A stretch of DNA of 64,000 nucleotides, taken from contig JAUIBP010000002.1 of NCBI GenBank assembly GCA_030427735.1, forward strand, positions 248,001 through 312,000, given 5' to 3'. Numbering within the stretch: position 1 is the stretch's first letter; the number at the start of each line of letters is the position of its first letter. This DNA is from Bacteroidia bacterium. Lineage in GTDB: Bacteria > Bacteroidota > Bacteroidia > Flavobacteriales > Flavobacteriaceae. Both the position numbers and the translations under genes were made by a program. The notes under the pieces were generated by a model that saw only the letters and a program-made list of their open reading frames with translations, had not been told where the DNA came from and did no database searches. Shown in pieces: positions 11,443-25,641 of the stretch.

Positions 11443-12267
11443 TTAACCTAAAGCTACATCTAAGGTCATCATAATTATAAATCCACCAATAAATCCTAAA
11501 GTAGCTACATCGGTATACTTATCGCGTTGCGTTTCTGGCACAACTTCCTCAACCACAACAAAAATCATAGCCCCTGCAGCAAAAGCCAAAGCATAGGGTA
11601 AAATAGGTGTAAAAAAGGTTACCGCTATTGCACCTATCACTGCAGCAATAGGCTCTACAATGGCCGATAGCTGACCATACCAAAAACTTTTAAATTTACT
11701 AATGCCTTGTCGGCGTAACGGCATCGAAACCGCCAGACCTTCGGGAAAATTCTGAATCCCAATTCCAATAGCCAAGGCAACAGCGCCCCCTATAGTGGCT
11801 TCGGGTATACCGGCAGCTACACCACCAAACAACACGCCAACCGCTAAACCTTCCGGAATATTATGTAAGGTAATGGCAAGCACCAAAAGTGTGGTTCTTC
11901 GCCAAGGACTTTTTACGCCCTCTTTTTCGTTTTCCTTAAAATTGATATGTAAATGAGGTAAAATTTTATCGAGTGCAAACAAAAACAAAGCCCCCATAGC
12001 AAAGCCAACCGCCGCAGGAATAACTTTTACAAAACCCTCGCCAGGGCTCATTTCGATACCCGGCGCCAACAAACTCCAAAAACTGGCCGCCACCATAACA
12101 CCGCCTGTAAACCCCAGCATGCCATCAAGTAAACCACGGTTCATACCTTTAAAAAAGAATACCAAAGCCGCACCGGCAGCGGTAACAATCCAAGTAAACA
12201 AAGAAGCATAAAGCGCCCCTAAAACCGGATCTATAGATTCGAAATATTGAATGATTGTATCTAACAT
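11443..12267 (-). CDS. ZIP family divalent metal transporter
   Basis: Protein of 274 residues with about eight membrane helices. The metal-site helices carry the ZIP signatures HNIPEG and QNFPEG near residues 140 and 175, and a His-containing loop (Pro-His-Leu-His) precedes them, as in GufA/ZupT-type members. ZIP proteins import Zn, Fe or Mn. Its ATG overlaps the stop of the DtxR/MntR gene by one base (TAATG), so both are translationally coupled; this favours manganese or iron as substrate. Confidence 0.92.
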   Translation of the reverse strand: MLDTIIQYFESIDPVLGALYASLFTWIVTAAGAALVFFFKGMNRGLLDGMLGFTGGVMVAASFWSLLAPGIEMSPGEGFVKVIPAAVGFAMGALFLFALDKILPHLHINFKENEKEGVKSPWRRTTLLVLAITLHNIPEGLAVGVLFGGVAAGIPEATIGGAVALAIGIGIQNFPEGLAVSMPLRRQGISKFKSFWYGQLSAIVEPIAAVIGAIAVTFFTPILPYALAFAAGAMIFVVVEEVVPETQRDKYTDVATLGFIGGFIIMMTLDVALG

Positions 12268-19719: not shown

Positions 19720-20382
19720 ATGACAATTATGAGCGATACTACTATTATACCACAAACCATAGATTTTGTTAAACACACGCTACAACATGCCGAAGGCGGG
19801 CACGATTGGTTTCATATAGAACGGGTTTACAACAATGCTAAACTAATTGCAAAAACCGAAAACGTAAACCTATTGGTTGTAGAATTAGCTGCTCTTTTAC
19901 ACGATATTGCCGATAGTAAGTTTTATGATGGCGACGAAACCATTGGCCCAAAAATGGCTTCAGAGTTTTTAAACAGTATTCATGTTGACAATACTACAAT
20001 TAACCATGTAGTTGCGATTATTGAAAACATTTCGTTTAAAGGCGGGCACACTAAAAGCTCTTTTTCTTCAATAGAACTAGATGTTGTTCAAGATGCCGAT
20101 CGATTAGACGCCATTGGCGCCATTGGTATTGCCAGATGTTTTAATTATGGAGGCTTTAAAAACAGAGCCATTTACGACCCGAACATCGCACCAAATCTAA
20201 ACATGACGAAAGAAGCTTATAAGGCATCTACTGCGCCTTCCATAAATCATTTTTATGAAAAGCTTTTACTTTTAAAAGATAAAATGAACACTCTAACCGG
20301 TAAGACCATAGCAGCACAACGCCACGAATTTATGGAGTTGTATCTAAAACAATTTTACGCCGAATGGAACGGCGAACGCTAA
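19720..20382 (+). CDS. HD domain phosphohydrolase
   Basis: Protein of 220 residues (217 if the second ATG at 19729 is used). The HD pattern is His32, His61-Asp62 (LLHDIAD) and a later Asp near 126 (QDADRLDAIG), the metal ligands of HD phosphohydrolases of the YedJ type. Substrate unknown, likely a nucleotide or phosphate ester in the cytoplasm. Its stop codon abuts that of the convergent AraC gene with no gap. Confidence 0.87.
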   Translation: MTIMSDTTIIPQTIDFVKHTLQHAEGGHDWFHIERVYNNAKLIAKTENVNLLVVELAALLHDIADSKFYDGDETIGPKMASEFLNSIHVDNTTINHVVAIIENISFKGGHTKSSFSSIELDVVQDADRLDAIGAIGIARCFNYGGFKNRAIYDPNIAPNLNMTKEAYKASTAPSINHFYEKLLLLKDKMNTLTGKTIAAQRHEFMELYLKQFYAEWNGER

Positions 20383-21252
20383 TTATTGAATAATACGCGT
20401 CATTTCACTTCGATATTTAGAAGCAGTGGTTCCGGTAATCTCGTTAAAAAATTTATTGAAATGCGAGAAATTATTAAAGCCGCATTCAAAACAAATATCG
20501 GTTATACTCATTTTACTTTCTTGAAGCAATTTAGTAGCATGCACTACGCGGTATTCGTTAACTAACTTGGTAAATGTTTTTCCTGTTGCTTTTTTAAAGA
20601 ATCTACAAAACGCCGGCACCGTCATGTTTACTTTACCAGCCATGTCTTCTAAACTAATGTGCTCCTGAAAGTTATTATTTATGTACTTAAAAATAACATC
20701 TATTTTAGCACTGTCTTGAGGTTCGGTTTCGAAAGCCACACCATCTACATTTAATAAGGTATAATGTTCGCTAAGCGCTAAATCGTTTAAAATTTCCAAA
20801 AATTTTAAAACCCTATTAAAACCCTGAAGGTCGTTTAAAGATTCTATTTTAGGGCCAACCAAAAATTTAGTTTCAGGTTTGTAAAGAATTCCTTTTTTAG
20901 CGCGCTCAAACAGTAAAGCGATGCGTTCCATCTCTGGAAGTTTAAAAAACGAATCTCCCAAGAAATCTGGTAAAAACTGTATAATGGTTTCCGAACCGCT
21001 AGCTGTTAAACGATCTGTAAATCCGTTATGCGGCAAATTAGATCCAATAAGGATAAGCTGACTATTATTAAAATAAGACAAATGGTTACCAATATGGCGT
21101 TTACCTTGTCCTTTATTTACATAAACCAATTCTAATTCTGGATGAAAATGCCAAAACGCACGGCTTTTGTGCGCTTCTTGCGTATGGTGCCTAACCACTA
21201 AGGAACTTCCAAAGCTGGGCGTTACTTTTTCGTATGTAGGTTTTATTTTCAT
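20383..21252 (-). CDS. AraC family transcriptional regulator with cupin domain
   Basis: Start taken at the ATG at 21252 (289 residues; the longer frame from 21291 adds 13 non-conserved residues and runs through the -7 element at 21271-21278). An N-terminal cupin-like ligand domain (HFHPELELVYV near residue 40) is followed by two C-terminal helix-turn-helix units (last 100 residues, ending with the CGFNNFSHFNKFF signature). It is divergent from a promoter block repeated before three downstream paralogous genes, which makes it the obvious candidate regulator of that family. Confidence 0.9.
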   Translation of the reverse strand: MKIKPTYEKVTPSFGSSLVVRHHTQEAHKSRAFWHFHPELELVYVNKGQGKRHIGNHLSYFNNSQLILIGSNLPHNGFTDRLTASGSETIIQFLPDFLGDSFFKLPEMERIALLFERAKKGILYKPETKFLVGPKIESLNDLQGFNRVLKFLEILNDLALSEHYTLLNVDGVAFETEPQDSAKIDVIFKYINNNFQEHISLEDMAGKVNMTVPAFCRFFKKATGKTFTKLVNEYRVVHATKLLQESKMSITDICFECGFNNFSHFNKFFNEITGTTASKYRSEMTRIIQ

Positions 21253-21270
21253 AGGGTACAGGTTTTTACA

Positions 21271-21278
21271 CAAAAATA
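21271..21278 (-). promoter_or_regulatory. -7 element of the AraC gene
   Basis: TATTTTTG on the minus strand, 19 nt upstream of the chosen start at 21252. Confidence 0.45.
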
Positions 21279-21337
21279 CAAAATGCTGCAAAGGTATAAC
21301 ATGTTCTTAATTATCTATAATATATGCTAAATTATCT

Positions 21338-21429
21338 TTACAAAAGCTTAACGTAAATTTCACAGTTAATATTCCACACAAAATAGGCAATATTGATGTT
21401 TTACAGCTTAAAATACCACCCTATATTTG
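21338..21429 (+). promoter_or_regulatory. conserved promoter block, cassette 0
   Basis: Contains TTACAAAAGCTTAAC, a GCAATATTGATGTTTT stretch and the -7 element TATATTTG (21422-21429), with a 19- to 20-nt gap between GATGTTTT and the -7. The same block precedes each of the three paralogous genes that follow, but no protein gene follows this copy. Confidence 0.7.
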
Positions 21430-21434
21430 TCATG

Positions 21435-21628
21435 TAATCATACAACAAGCTGTAAGTCTTAGCTTACCTTTTTGGATAACAACAATAAAGTTCTCAATAC
21501 TCGAATACATAACCTATTTAATACGAGTATGATAAAATATAATTTTTGAATTTAAATAAATAGTTAGTTAGACTATGTCAATTAGTTAGTTTGTTAGAGT
21601 GGGTCTGGTTAACCCACTCTTTTTTTTT
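21435..21628 (+). ncRNA. candidate small RNA or coding-deleted cassette remnant
   Basis: From the cassette 0 promoter to its terminator the transcript would be about 195 nt. It has no reading frame of note (an ATG is followed directly by TAA; others stop within a few codons). It keeps the conserved 3' block (TAGTTAGTTAGACTATGTCAATTAG from 21561 onward) found after the first two paralogues. An inner inverted repeat TACTCG...CGAGTA lies near 21497-21531. Either a small RNA or a deletion remnant of a fourth paralogue. Confidence 0.45.
21596..21628 (+). terminator. terminator, cassette 0
   Basis: 9-bp stem AGAGTGGGT/ACCCACTCT with loop CTGGTTA and a 9-nt T-run. Confidence 0.88.
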
Positions 21629-21814
21629 ATTTATTTAAATTACAGAATTATCATCTTCATGAGTTTTTAAGTACTAAAAACGGCTCCCGATTAAAATTTT
21701 ATACTTTTTTTTAATCAGCCTTCAAAAAAAACTTCAAACTACAACGTTTTCGATTCAAAAAATATTACAATATAGAACATAAAATGTTTTATTTTAACTC
21801 AATAAAACATATTT

Positions 21815-21891
21815 ACAACGTTTTCGGATAATATAGCATACAAACAAGGCAATATTGATGTTTTTCAGCATGTAAAACCGCTCTATATTTG
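21815..21891 (+). promoter_or_regulatory. conserved promoter block, cassette 1
   Basis: Carries ATAATATAGCATACAAAC, AATATTGATGTTTT and -7 TATATTTG (21884-21891), 27 nt before the ATG. ACAACGTTTTCG at 21815-21826 is repeated at 21741-21752, 74 nt upstream, unique to this cassette. The stretch from 21629 to 21740 holds nothing recognised. Confidence 0.65.
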
Positions 21892-21917
21892 CAGTGTTAA
21901 TCGTTAAGAAAAACAAC

Positions 21918-22523
21918 ATGAAAAACGTAATTAAATTTAGCATGTGCCTATTAGTAATGGTTACTACAATGGCAACAAGTTACGCAGGTAACACAAAAAA
22001 AGAAGATGATGATAAAGGTAAAATGGTTATAACATTAACCTTAAATAACGTAAAAGCTGGTCAACAATTAGTAATTAAGGATTTAGATGGTTTAACCATT
22101 TACAAAGAAGCTATTGCTACTACTGGTTTATACAACAACACGTTTAACTTAAAAGCGTTACCAGAAGGAACATATTATTTTGAGCACTATAAAGATTTAC
22201 AAATTAAACGTATTCCTTTTACAGTTGCCAAAGGCGAAGTTTCTTTTGATAGCAACAACGGTAAAACATTCTTTAAGCCAGTGGTACGCAAACAAGGCAA
22301 CGTTATGTATTTAACCCAATTAGCTTTAGACAAAGAAGATTTAAATGTAGCAATATACTACAGCAGCGATGTAAAATCTGATTTCGAGTTAATCCATGCA
22401 GAGCATGTTACCGACACCTTAAACATCGAGCGTATTTACCAATTATCTCCAGAAAGAAAAGGAGAATACAGAGTAGTACTTACCACAAATGGCGAAGATT
22501 TTGTAGAAAACTTCACCTTATAA
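21918..22523 (+). CDS. secreted paralogue 1 of 3, unknown function
   Basis: Start taken at the ATG at 21918 (201 residues), which begins a standard signal peptide ending Ser-Tyr-Ala; an in-frame ATG at 21894 would overlap the promoter. The mature protein looks all-beta, with two related halves: each has a hydrophobic strand pair, a Tyr-rich strand and a terminal strand pattern like Gly-x-Tyr-x-Phe. The first half (Leu-Pro-Glu-Gly-Thr-Tyr-Tyr-Phe) resembles the fold of T9SS type A sorting domains, but it is not at the C-terminus of a cargo. No family recognised. Paralogous to genes at 23011 and 24065. Confidence 0.8.
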   Translation: MKNVIKFSMCLLVMVTTMATSYAGNTKKEDDDKGKMVITLTLNNVKAGQQLVIKDLDGLTIYKEAIATTGLYNNTFNLKALPEGTYYFEHYKDLQIKRIPFTVAKGEVSFDSNNGKTFFKPVVRKQGNVMYLTQLALDKEDLNVAIYYSSDVKSDFELIHAEHVTDTLNIERIYQLSPERKGEYRVVLTTNGEDFVENFTL

Positions 22524-22534
22524 AATATTAAATG

Positions 22535-22609
22535 AATAGTTAGTTAGACTATGTCAATTAGTTAGTTAGTTTGTTAGAGAGCGGGTCTGGTTAACCCGCT
22601 CTTTTTTTT
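22535..22609 (+). terminator. conserved 3' block and terminator, cassette 1
   Basis: TTAG-rich block (from 22535) then stem AGAGCGGGT/ACCCGCTCT (22578-22586 with 22594-22602), same CTGGTTA loop, T-run. The stem differs from cassette 0 by a compensated T-A to C-G pair. Confidence 0.88.
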
Positions 22610-22889
22610 GTTTATTATTCAAGTAAAAAACACAAACAAGCAACACCGTCTTAGCACATGAACCTCATCTACATTTAAAATTCAATTAACATATACTCCG
22701 CTAAATTTCGAGATGGTTATATGTATTTTAATTTAAGATTAACCTGAATCGCCTTATCTAAAAGTCCATTTGCCGTCGTAAATTTTATAATACCAAACTA
22801 CGCGGTTATTACAAAGCTTTTACGTGTATTCCTTAAAATGATCAAGCATAACGGATGCACAAAATTACCAAAAATATACTCTATATTAA

Positions 22890-22983
22890 CCTTACAAAAG
22901 CTTAACTTAAATTTTACAGATAATATAGCATACAAAATAGCCAATATCGATGTTTTAGATACCACCAACACCCCATACATTTG
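22890..22983 (+). promoter_or_regulatory. conserved promoter block, cassette 2
   Basis: TTACAAAAGCTTAACTTAAA, ATAATATAGCATACAAAATAG, CAATATCGATGTTTTA and -7 TACATTTG (22976-22983), 28 nt before the ATG; about 19 nt separate GATGTTTT and the -7. The stretch 22610-22889 contains nothing recognised. Confidence 0.7.
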
Positions 22984-23010
22984 TAGTGTTAATTGTTAAA
23001 AACAATCACT

Positions 23011-23625
23011 ATGAAAAAGGTATTACAATTTAGTATTTGCATGTTAGCCGTTTTAACTAGCATAGCAACAACCTATGCCAAAGACAACAAAGTAAAGGTT
23101 GACGACAAAAACAAAAAAGAGATTACATTAACGCTAGACGATGTTAAACAAGGCCAGCAACTTTTAATAAAAGATATTAATGGCTTGACACTTTATAAAG
23201 AAGATTTTAAAAATACAGGCAGCTACAGCAATACGTTCAATCTTTCTAATTTACCCAACGGAAGTTATTATTTTGAACACGAAAAAGATTACCAAGTAAA
23301 AATTATTCCTTTCGAAATACAATCTGGAGCAGCAGCTTATAATACTGCAAATTTTGTAACATTGTTTAAACCCGTTACCCGTTTTAAAAACAACACGGTA
23401 TACATCTCGAAATTAGCTTTAAACAAAGAAGATTTACACATAAAAATCTACTACAAAAAGAACAGCAATACTACCCATACAGATTTTGAACTTTTACACT
23501 CCGAAACTATCAGTAACCAAGTTAACATAGAACGTATTTACAGCCTATCTGAAAAGCAACAAGGAGAATATAAAATAGTATTTGAAACGGAAGGAAGATT
23601 TTATACAGAATACATGCATATTTAG
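23011..23625 (+). CDS. secreted paralogue 2 of 3, unknown function
   Basis: Start taken at the ATG at 23011 (204 residues), giving a signal peptide ending Thr-Tyr-Ala-Lys. Shares with paralogue 1 the core Gly-Gln-Gln-Leu-x-Ile-Lys-Asp, the Leu-Pro-x-Gly-x-Tyr-Tyr-Phe-Glu-His turn, Phe-Lys-Pro-Val, and the C-terminal Asn-Ile-Glu-Arg-Ile-Tyr-x-Leu. Located between its own promoter block and terminator, so transcribed alone. Confidence 0.82.
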   Translation: MKKVLQFSICMLAVLTSIATTYAKDNKVKVDDKNKKEITLTLDDVKQGQQLLIKDINGLTLYKEDFKNTGSYSNTFNLSNLPNGSYYFEHEKDYQVKIIPFEIQSGAAAYNTANFVTLFKPVTRFKNNTVYISKLALNKEDLHIKIYYKKNSNTTHTDFELLHSETISNQVNIERIYSLSEKQQGEYKIVFETEGRFYTEYMHI

Positions 23626-23636
23626 CACACAACATA

Positions 23637-23702
23637 TAGTTAGTTAGACTATGTAATTAGTTAGTTTGTTTAGAGTGGGTCTGGTTAACCCACTCTTTTT
23701 TT
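23637..23702 (+). terminator. conserved 3' block and terminator, cassette 2
   Basis: TAGTTAGTTAGACTATGTAA-type block, then stem AGAGTGGGT/ACCCACTCT (23672-23680 with 23688-23696), loop CTGGTTA, T-run. Confidence 0.88.
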
Positions 23703-23939
23703 ATTTACAAAACATTAACACAAAATCTCAATAACACACTAATTATTAAGTGTTTATTAAAAAAATTTAAACTATTACCCAGAGCCTATACTATTTTGCA
23801 GAACGCCTATACCAAACCCCAAAGCATATTAAACAATTCCGCAATTAAGGCATGTCGGTTACTAACCGAGATAAACCAATATTTCACCTTAAGAGCGACA
23901 CCAATAAAATCTGCTACATTACCTTAAATATATTCTATT

Positions 23940-24037
23940 TTAACATTACAAAAACTTAACTTAAATTTTACAGGTAATTTAGCATATAAAGTAGCCAATA
24001 TCGATGTTTTACACCCCAGTATTACAACCTACATTTG
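23940..24037 (+). promoter_or_regulatory. conserved promoter block, cassette 3
   Basis: TTACAAAAACTTAACTTAAA, TAATTTAGCATATAAAGTAG, CCAATATCGATGTTTTA and -7 TACATTTG (24030-24037), 28 nt before the ATG. In 23703-23939 only a short TCGGTT-ACT-AACCGA hairpin (23855-23869) stands out. Confidence 0.7.
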
Positions 24038-24064
24038 TAATGTTAATCGTTAAATAATTCAATT

Positions 24065-24673
24065 ATGAAAAAAGTAATGAAACTCAGTATTTGCATGTTA
24101 GTAATGGTTTCTAGCATAGCAACAAGTTACGCCACTAACTTTTCATCATTTATTGATGATAAAGAGAAAATGGAGATTACGTTAACACTTAAAGATGCAA
24201 AAGAAGGACAGCAATTATTAATAAAAGATGTTAATGGTTTAATCTTACACAAAGAAACAATAGAAAAGACAGGCTTGTACAACAACACCTTCGATTTAAC
24301 CAATTTGCCAAACGGTAACTATTATTTCGAACATCAAAAAGCCTATCAAATCAAAATCATTCCTTTTAATGTAAAAACGGGTACTGTTGCCTTTATAACA
24401 GATAAAGAGATTACACTTTTTAAGCCTGTTTTAAGAGTAAAGGAAAACAACATTTTAATTTCTAAACTGGCTTTAGAAAAAGAACCTTTACACGTAAAAA
24501 TTTACTACAATACCAATTTAAGAGGAGCCGATTACGAACTTATTCATGCCGATACAATTACCAACGAAATGAATATCGAGCGCATCTATCAATTAGATGG
24601 TAAAGAACACGGTGATTACCGTATCGTTTTCGAATCGAACGGCAGAGAATACGTAGAATATTTTAAAATATAA
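24065..24673 (+). CDS. secreted paralogue 3 of 3, unknown function
   Basis: Protein of 202 residues with signal peptide ending Ser-Tyr-Ala-Thr. It keeps all shared motifs of the family (Gly-Gln-Gln-Leu-Leu-Ile-Lys-Asp, Tyr-Tyr-Phe-Glu-His, Phe-Lys-Pro-Val, Asn-Ile-Glu-Arg-Ile-Tyr-Gln-Leu). Unlike the other copies, its 3' side lacks the conserved terminator block; 28 nt after the stop comes copy 3 of the dispersed palindromic element, which may have replaced it. Confidence 0.82.
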   Translation: MKKVMKLSICMLVMVSSIATSYATNFSSFIDDKEKMEITLTLKDAKEGQQLLIKDVNGLILHKETIEKTGLYNNTFDLTNLPNGNYYFEHQKAYQIKIIPFNVKTGTVAFITDKEITLFKPVLRVKENNILISKLALEKEPLHVKIYYNTNLRGADYELIHADTITNEMNIERIYQLDGKEHGDYRIVFESNGREYVEYFKI

Positions 24674-24700
24674 TGTTTATCTAGTCACTAAGTTTATTGT

Positions 24701-24837
24701 AAAGAGGCCGCCTAAAAAGTTTAAAAGTACGTCATTCTGTGCTTGACACAGAATCTCACCATATTGAAAATCAATAATTATGAGAATCTGAAATAAATTC
24801 AGATTGACAAAAAACTAACTTTTTGGACAGCCTCTTT
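24701..24837. repeat. dispersed palindromic element, copy 3
   Basis: Terminal inverted repeats of 21 bp with three mismatches (24701-24721 with 24817-24837) and the shared inner hairpins. It lies between the convergent paralogue 3 and crotonase genes and could act as a bidirectional terminator in RNA. Confidence 0.8.
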
Positions 24838-24861
24838 CTTATGTTTTATAACCCCAGAAAA

Positions 24862-25641
24862 TCACTTATTAAACTGCGCTTTGCGTTTTTCTAAAAAAGC
24901 GGTAGTACCTTCTTTAAAATCATCGGTTCCAAAACAAGCGCCAAAAGCTTCAATTTCCGAAGCATAACCATTAACATTTGCCTTATACCCTGCATTAATT
25001 ACCGCAATGGCTTTACCAATGGCAACAGGCGAATTTTTCATTATTTTTTGAGCTATCCCTTCGCAAAACTCCAATAAAGTATCTTGCTCCACAACATGAT
25101 TTACTAAACCGTAATGCAAGGCTTGCTCGGCGTTAATCATTCCTGCAGTCATAATCATTTCCATAGCGCGACCTTTACCCACTAATTGTGGCAAACGCTG
25201 CGTACCGCCATAACCAGGAATAACCCCTAAAGAAACCTCCGGAAGTCCCATTTTAGCATTGGTACTAGCCACTCTAAAATGGCACGCCATAGCTAACTCT
25301 AAACCTCCACCTAAAGCGAAACCATTAACAGCAGCTATAACTGGTGTTTGCAAATTTTCTACAAAATCGAACAGCAACTCCTGACCTTTTGCTGCCAAAG
25401 CAGCGCCTTGATCGACATTAAAATGTGCGAATTCACTAATATCCGCACCGGCAACAAAGGCCTTTTCTCCAGTTCCAGTAATTAGTATAACGCGTGTTTC
25501 GGTATTTTCATCTGCTAATTTAAAAGCTGAATGCAACTCGGCTATCGTTTCTTTATTTAAAGCATTTAATTTTGTAGGTCGGTTTATGGTTATAGTGGCA
25601 ACCCCTTCGTGGGTTTCTAAAAGTAAATTATTAAACGTCAT
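24862..25641 (-). CDS. enoyl-CoA hydratase/isomerase family protein (crotonase)
   Basis: The start is the ATG at 25641 (259 residues, normal for the family); the longer frame from 25767 overlaps the kinase gene in a different frame. The oxyanion-hole segment Gly-Gly-Gly-Leu-Glu-Leu-Ala-Met lies near residue 110 and the Leu-Pro-Glu-Val-Ser-Leu-Gly-Val-Ile-Pro-Gly-Tyr-Gly-Gly segment near 130-140, so both catalytic Glu residues of enoyl-CoA hydratases are present. It hydrates trans-2-enoyl-CoA in fatty-acid or amino-acid breakdown. It follows the histidine kinase gene by 4 nt. Confidence 0.9.
   Translation of the reverse strand: MTFNNLLLETHEGVATITINRPTKLNALNKETIAELHSAFKLADENTETRVILITGTGEKAFVAGADISEFAHFNVDQGAALAAKGQELLFDFVENLQTPVIAAVNGFALGGGLELAMACHFRVASTNAKMGLPEVSLGVIPGYGGTQRLPQLVGKGRAMEMIMTAGMINAEQALHYGLVNHVVEQDTLLEFCEGIAQKIMKNSPVAIGKAIAVINAGYKANVNGYASEIEAFGACFGTDDFKEGTTAFLEKRKAQFNK

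Follow-up and report, generated by a model that had tools for sequence, protein, structure and literature searches.

The locus described here raises the question of whether a single regulator switches on a repeated family of exported proteins together. It occupies positions 20383-24837 of a 64,000-nucleotide stretch of DNA from a Bacteroidia bacterium of the Flavobacteriaceae (hereafter the window), which lies on contig 9 of its own genome (G000, 3.64 Mb). An earlier sequence-only reading had noted an AraC gene divergent to the first of several repeated promoters and had suggested that one regulator co-switches the family. We analyzed the locus within a sample of 59 genomes, G000 counted in, which includes five congeners (G001-G005; the genus sample is these plus G000). 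The locus consists of one AraC-family gene followed by four oppositely read cassettes (0-3), and in cassette 0, next to AraC, the block, promoter and terminator are present and the gene is absent. As set out below, we consider it likely that a single AraC protein controls its own gene and activates a tandemly amplified family of exported proteins that is private to it.

The features are listed here by position. A to D are conserved stretches of the upstream regions, R1 is a 65-nt sequence model built from 36 such regions, and R2 is a model of a repeated 3' untranslated region (3'UTR) element with 12 training rows; E denotes expectation value, CDS coding sequence and ORF open reading frame.

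20383-21252, minus strand: AraC-family regulator (start ATG; the TTG start of the ORF list gives 21291)
21271-21278, minus strand: presumed AraC -7 box TATTTTTG (minus-strand letters), near the operator's mirror position
21301-21337, plus strand: operator 0 half-sites A and B, direct, 21 bp apart (profile comparison, 47 upstream regions)
21364-21402, plus strand: operator 0 half-sites C (inverted B) and D (block pattern, profile comparison, R1 E 1.5e-13)
21422-21429, plus strand: -7 box TATATTTG of the CDS-less ("ghost") cassette 0 (-7 box alignment)
21430-21628, plus strand: predicted short transcript of CDS-less cassette 0, with no ORF of 80 aa or more
21557-21624, plus strand: 3'UTR element of cassette 0, with hairpin, AGTT linker and terminator with CTGGTTA loop (R2 E 8.7e-14, training row)
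21763-21799, plus strand: copy 1 half-sites A/B, degenerate (profile comparison of upstream regions)
21827-21891, plus strand: copy 1 half-sites C/D and -7 box (R1 E 8.0e-14)
21918-22523, plus strand: copy 1, exported two-domain protein, 201 aa (ORF, Pfam, alignment)
22533-22606, plus strand: copy 1 3'UTR element (R2 E 1.0e-13, training row)
22855-22891, plus strand: copy 2 half-sites A/B (profile comparison of upstream regions)
22919-22983, plus strand: copy 2 half-sites C/D and -7 box (R1 E 8.7e-15)
23011-23625, plus strand: copy 2, exported two-domain protein, 204 aa (ORF, Pfam, alignment)
23633-23700, plus strand: copy 2 3'UTR element (R2 E 1.2e-12, training row)
23909-23945, plus strand: copy 3 half-sites A/B (profile comparison of upstream regions)
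23973-24037, plus strand: copy 3 half-sites C/D and -7 box (R1 E 1.4e-15)
24065-24673, plus strand: copy 3, exported two-domain protein, 202 aa, with no 3'UTR element behind it (DUF3244 2.4e-7; predicted beta structure)

Linkage of the upstream block and the AraC gene to the family

The upstream blocks of the four cassettes align at 21365, 21827, 22919 and 23973. With up to three mismatches allowed, the block pattern has exactly four matches in the 64-kb window, compared with a mean of 0.00 in 100 shuffles. The promoter layout proposed by the sequence-only reading holds for the block, for its 19-nt distance to the next box, which is the same in all four cassettes, and for the short leaders, which measure 26-27 nt in the three genes (27-28 nt in that reading). 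The block itself is repeated and private, but the TAnATTTG that had been counted with it is a form of TAnnTTTG, a general Bacteroidota -7 box (PMC9723704, PMC7366714); TAnnTTTG stands at -7, as a Bacteroidota sigma-A promoter requires, in all four. Over 140 nt, the promoters share 62-75% identity with the first one, compared with 49% for the one pair of between-gene stretches compared (164 columns, 92 of them gapped), in agreement with the earlier claim that promoters are the better conserved. The coding sequences are 61-65% identical between window copies.

Genome-wide searches place the block at this family. The core sequence CAATATYGATGTTTT has four exact matches in G000, all in this locus (with one mismatch, 14 sites vs. 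4 for the reversed control). Model R1 finds four matches in G000 at E<=1.5e-13, again all at this locus, and the next is a partial match at 8.7e-4. In the five congeners it finds 25 matches at E<=5.5e-9 (next 0.009), all at cassettes: 23 precede the 23 family copies known there, and two precede CDS-less copies (G004:1037994 and G003:993983). An R1 match also lies in the gap between AraC and target in four genomes outside the training set (G013, G015, G028, G034). The block is private to the exported-protein family and is not a general promoter feature shared with unrelated genes.

The AraC protein has a clear C-terminal HTH_18 domain (Pfam 6e-22, 78.2 bits vs. a cut-off of 33.6) and a weak N-terminal cupin-like AraC_binding match (0.0041, 17.3 bits, under the cut-off of 21.1). 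It is 89-90% identical in amino acids to its counterparts in G001-G004 and 46-74% identical to those of other genera. The exported family is found in 23 of the 59 genomes, G000 included, or 22 once G041 is dropped, where the match spans 57 residues of a 1542-aa frame. AraC occurs at E<=1e-60 in 23 of the 59, plus G030, where its frame is split. All 22 family-bearing genomes carry AraC, with the frame split in G030 and G005; the two frames are broken at different places (L070:6317-7182 and L060:11253-12118, respectively), and the splits may be real breakage or sequencing error.

In 19 of the 22 genomes AraC is divergent and adjacent to a family copy, so that conservation of the regulator beside the family, on which the earlier reading depended, is what we observe. 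In the other three (G000, G004, G007) AraC faces a CDS-less promoter; G007 was judged by eye because R1 is under threshold there. AraC without a family match occurs only in G011, where an operator-like region with no visible CDS faces it, and in G017, where a 113-aa one-domain version lies in the divergent position (profile E 8e-10 in a one-sequence search). The same pair recurs at four further loci (three Lacinutrix, UBA5534), and the unit is found widely among Flavobacteriaceae and, in G039 and G052, in a second family of the order. AraC is thus a conserved partner of the exported-protein family.

Operator architecture and the proposed circuit

To compare the operators, we aligned upstream regions on the -7 box and kept 47. 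Regions outside the window were anchored on TAnnTTTG, and conservation of the -7 box there is partly circular. Dropped before counting were L059_12779 (decayed core), L061 (a duplicate of L049) and L074, L076, L078 and L079 (weak, shifted or motif-less; L078 has no TAnnTTTG box). Four conserved stretches emerge, A (-121), B (-100), C (-58) and D (-37), centered on -71.5. B matches inverted C with a profile correlation of 0.98, and A matches B directly, 21 bp apart, with 0.83 (background standard deviation 0.18). At the mirror position, -142 to -144, an AraC -7 box CAAANNTA is found in 17 of 25 AraC-adjacent regions vs. none of 22 tandem regions. This mirrored half-site pair upstream of the block had been overlooked in the earlier reading, and AraC and target probably share one symmetric operator. 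The tandem regions retain A and B at means of 0.65 and 0.92 bits per column, compared with 0.33 in the B-C spacer. As they keep this pair though the AraC -7 box is gone, both pairs probably matter for activation of the target.

From this arrangement, we propose that AraC is read divergently from an operator in which A and B point one way, C is an inverted B, and D lies 21 bp beyond C, abutting the target promoter. One half-site pair would most likely seat AraC beside RNA polymerase at the target promoter and the other at AraC's own promoter, with the upstream A/B pair likely to matter for the target itself. The ancestral unit would have been one AraC gene and one divergent target, and in the window's genus the target cassette would have been amplified together with its operator, giving the four cassettes of the window. 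The E. coli araC-araBAD system provides a precedent, with an autoregulated activator, a divergent target and a proximal site against the promoter. Like such AraC/RhaS-type systems, the locus pairs a regulator with a divergently read target, has half-sites repeated directly at 21 bp (clear for A-B, weak for C-D) and encodes a C-terminal HTH_18 domain. It differs from araC-araBAD in having two mirrored pairs in one compact operator, a Bacteroidota -7 box and a weak D, and in that its targets are an amplified exported family instead of catabolic genes.

Several observations weigh against this proposal. The direct similarity of D to C is weak (0.37), D is not the best direct match of C across all 47 regions, and D may partly or wholly be a promoter element instead of a half-site. 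In eight of the 25 AraC-adjacent regions the mirror -7 box is missing, the A/B half-sites of copy 1 are degenerate, and the C/D of cassette 0 has the most mismatches of the four (three). R1 was trained on most of the loci that it then found strongly, three R1 matches at E<=1e-3 lie elsewhere (G053, G006:C12, G000:C12), and under stricter filters 10 of the 24 AraC-bearing genomes have no block at E 1e-3 beside AraC (G006, G007, G011, G016, G017, G022, G029, G030, G039, G052). The overlap of D with the place of a -33 element could also mean that the block, as part of the promoter, serves a sigma factor or a different regulator, with AraC a mere neighbor. We consider this improbable, given the confinement of the block to the family, the linkage of AraC and the mirrored AraC -7 box. 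The genome comparison supports the earlier suggestion of one regulator for the repeated family, in which binding by AraC, and activation rather than repression, are what we infer from sequence.

Exported beta-repeat proteins

The window copies (201, 204 and 202 aa) are related as the sequence-only reading had said, with 51-60% amino acid identity between pairs. Each starts with a signal-peptide-like segment followed by beta strands in two repeats, and an AlphaFold2 model of copy 3 from eight sequences has a mean per-residue confidence (pLDDT) of 80 and a predicted template-modeling score (pTM) of 0.70. The earlier reading had not recognized the family, which Pfam makes recognizable as two-domain DUF3244/Por_Secre_tail-like beta repeats. 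Copy 3 exceeds the 25-bit cut-off of DUF3244 (PF11589; 2.4e-7, 31.1 bits), whereas copy 2 (1.6e-4, 22.0 bits) and copy 1 (1.1e-3, 19.4 bits) fall below it; three of eight relatives reach this cut-off, and two of eight reach that of Por_Secre_tail. As a sorting domain of the type IX secretion system, Por_Secre_tail (PF18962) is not borne out, with all three window copies below cut-off, the best stretch N-terminal and no cargo domain. The repeats thus match these families weakly to moderately, with predicted beta structure, and differ from them in apparently forming two repeats without a cargo domain and in that copies 1, 2 and several relatives score below curated cut-offs. A sequence search of solved structures returned three matches, none meaningful (best E 1.5), and generic immunoglobulin/fibronectin type III-like Foldseek matches (33 at E<=0.001, template-modeling scores to query 0.20-0.34) were not read as kinship. 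Those tables of PMC10434189 that mention DUF3244 in B. thetaiotaomicron had no bearing on function here.

Among G001-G003 and G005 the AraC-adjacent target is 62-77% identical in amino acids, and AraC is 94-99% identical among G001-G004; third-position identity in the same congener comparisons is 58-68% for targets and 63-74% for AraC. In a tree, the window's three copies are grouped separately from those of the congeners (support 93/97). The proteins are presumably periplasmic or surface-exposed, and their tandem amplification and fast change hint at an outward-facing role. Cassettes lie at two places in G001, G003 and G004, on three contigs in G002 and together in G005. Two near-identical copies in G003 (L057:10459-11061 and 11564-12166) reflect a recent duplication, beside a decayed copy at ~9984. 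The gene order of the window recurs at Lacinutrix L047: HD-type hydrolase, AraC, target and enoyl-CoA hydratase (neighbors named by eye). Behind copy 3 (24700-24840) lies a small imperfect inverted repeat, bounded by GAGGCCGCCTAAAAAG and CTTTTTGGACAGCCTC and unlike the ends of the other window cassettes (both by eye).

The 3'UTR element and cassettes without a coding sequence

A repeated 3'UTR/terminator element, also overlooked earlier, stands behind cassettes 0, 1 and 2. It comprises 68-74 nt with a weak hairpin, a linker with TTAGTTAGTT and a terminator with a CTGGTTA loop; as RNA, this reads as a hairpin, a UUAGUUAGUU linker, predicted to be unpaired in most copies folded, and a terminator with an invariant CUGGUUA loop. 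At E<=1.2e-12, R2 finds three copies in G000 and nine in congeners; every one lies in a cassette and belongs to the training rows. R2 also matches weakly within the tandem arrays of three congeners at places other than the family copies (L057:9773-9842, L052:8929-8987 and L059:9306-9359; E 0.018, 0.020 and 0.26); the L057 match sits right where a 430-aa gene ends. AGTT repeats stand before the terminator in 18 of 38 family cases vs. 4 of 102 others (both L049 and L061 counted); of these four, two belong to CDS-less cassettes and one lies behind a weak family copy in G007.

One explanation for the element, which would add to the AraC circuit rather than replace it, is that the AraC-controlled transcript also yields a functional small RNA (sRNA) from its 3'UTR, and that, with paralogs supplying the protein, the AraC-adjacent gene sheds its CDS and survives as a pure RNA gene (21430-21628, G004, perhaps G007). 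We give this a little less than an even chance. It would account for the window elements being 91-96% identical, compared with 61-65% for the coding sequences and 49% for the one between-gene pair, and for the element being identical at 72 of 72 nt in G001, G002, G003 and CDS-less G004, in spite of AraC third positions of 0.63-0.74 and fourfold sites of 0.44-0.63 (44-63% identical) in G001-G004. The G004 tandem copy's element differs from the CDS-less one, and therefore copying from the tandem copy does not explain this identity. In the G004 cassette the leader has decayed to 0.46 (0.71 between intact cassettes), while the element stands at 0.99 (0.97) and C+D at 0.91 (0.94); recent loss of the CDS in G004 is possible, though the decayed leader speaks against recency. 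The more distant cassette 0 of the window has values of 0.55 for the leader, 0.88 for the element, 0.84 for C+D and 0.68 for A+B. Over the 12 training rows the terminator stem is paired in 108 of 108 cells, with three of nine pairs changed on both sides, and the loop does not vary. Within the fetched loci (477 kb), R2 has 29 matches at E<=1: the 12 training rows, 10 AraC-adjacent 3'UTRs, one duplicate (L061), two tandem copies and four elsewhere, so that 10 of 19 non-training AraC-adjacent loci are matched (E 7.6e-5 to 0.28).

Other results count against an RNA function. Copy 3 lacks the element, as do 15 of the 19 tandem copies in congeners, and R2 has no match at E<=1 in the CDS-less loci L077 and L079. 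Of the 10 matches that R2 has at E<=0.1 outside its training rows in 36 genomes, just two fall at family 3'UTRs (G013, G021). The decayed copy G003:993983 has kept its operator and lost its terminator, and in G011 no element is retained beside AraC; therefore, plain gene loss also occurs. With the terminator, the CDS-less transcripts have folding z-scores of -2.0 (window), -1.6 (G004) and -3.9 (G007), and without it they fold no better than shuffles (0.37, -0.43 and -1.18), so we rejected the whole transcripts as structured RNA, the terminator carrying most of the folding signal. The 11-nt complement of the linker, AAACTAACTAA, has 67 sites outside cassettes in the six genus genomes vs. 62 for a reversed control, no clear excess. 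The single site shared by all six, between divergent promoters of a pabB-like gene (by eye), is apparently untranscribed and is no convincing mRNA target.

In a different explanation, the element is only a protective mRNA end with AGTT repeats as multi-frame stops before a strong terminator, and the CDS-less cassettes are dead. We hold this to be plausible but short of probable. Repeats of the TTAGTTAGTTAG type carry TAG in each frame. AGTT repeats are also found behind an unrelated gene, as several TTTAGTTAG repeats lie between the stop codon and terminator of a SusD-like gene in G021 (L233, by eye), and the G003 copy decayed without retention. A protective end leaves unexplained both an invariant loop on a varying stem and perfect retention in G004 beside a decayed leader. 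Retention of the element points tentatively to a functional RNA, possibly an sRNA, again at somewhat less than even odds. The fuller proposal is slightly less likely: that the AraC-adjacent mRNA has two functions, its 3'UTR being an AraC-controlled sRNA kept across Flavobacteriaceae, and that its CDS was shed in G000, G004 and perhaps G007 to leave a pure regulatory-RNA gene while paralogs make the protein.

To our knowledge, few sRNAs have been worked out in the phylum Bacteroidota. A search of Rfam over 20300-24900 gave no family at gathering score; six matches at E<=5 were rejected as chance, three of them L20-leader fragments over terminators. No published equivalent of the element was found in the literature searched. 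MalH of E. coli is a 3'UTR-derived sRNA (PMC8081044) and GibS (PMC7366714) and Rfp18 (PMC9723704) are Bacteroidota sRNAs. The element resembles these in its predicted terminator-ended RNA, with a conserved linker unpaired in most folds, and differs from them in being a prediction from sequence, supported by retention after CDS loss. Two further observations concern noncoding sequence elsewhere in the genus. Upstream of the pabB-like gene, all six genomes share a strongly conserved stretch containing AAACTAACTAACTTTAC, placed by eye between divergent promoters (L173, L174, L186, L202, L208, L223). A possible second noncoding transcript, TTAGTTAGTTTAGTTAATTATTGG followed by a terminator, occurs at L225 (G000:C9:192998), L211 (G003:C1:937992) and L194 (G005:C1:2925674), with no ORF of more than 42 aa ending within 300 nt upstream and the same gene adjoining in three of six genomes.

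If the RNA explanation is true, the locus would illustrate the conversion of a coding gene into one for a regulatory RNA, and species with intact and CDS-less cassettes side by side would serve as natural deletions. For the AraC circuit that we favor, regulator, operator and protein family would form a closed unit that is conserved throughout a large bacterial family and has a predictable regulon.

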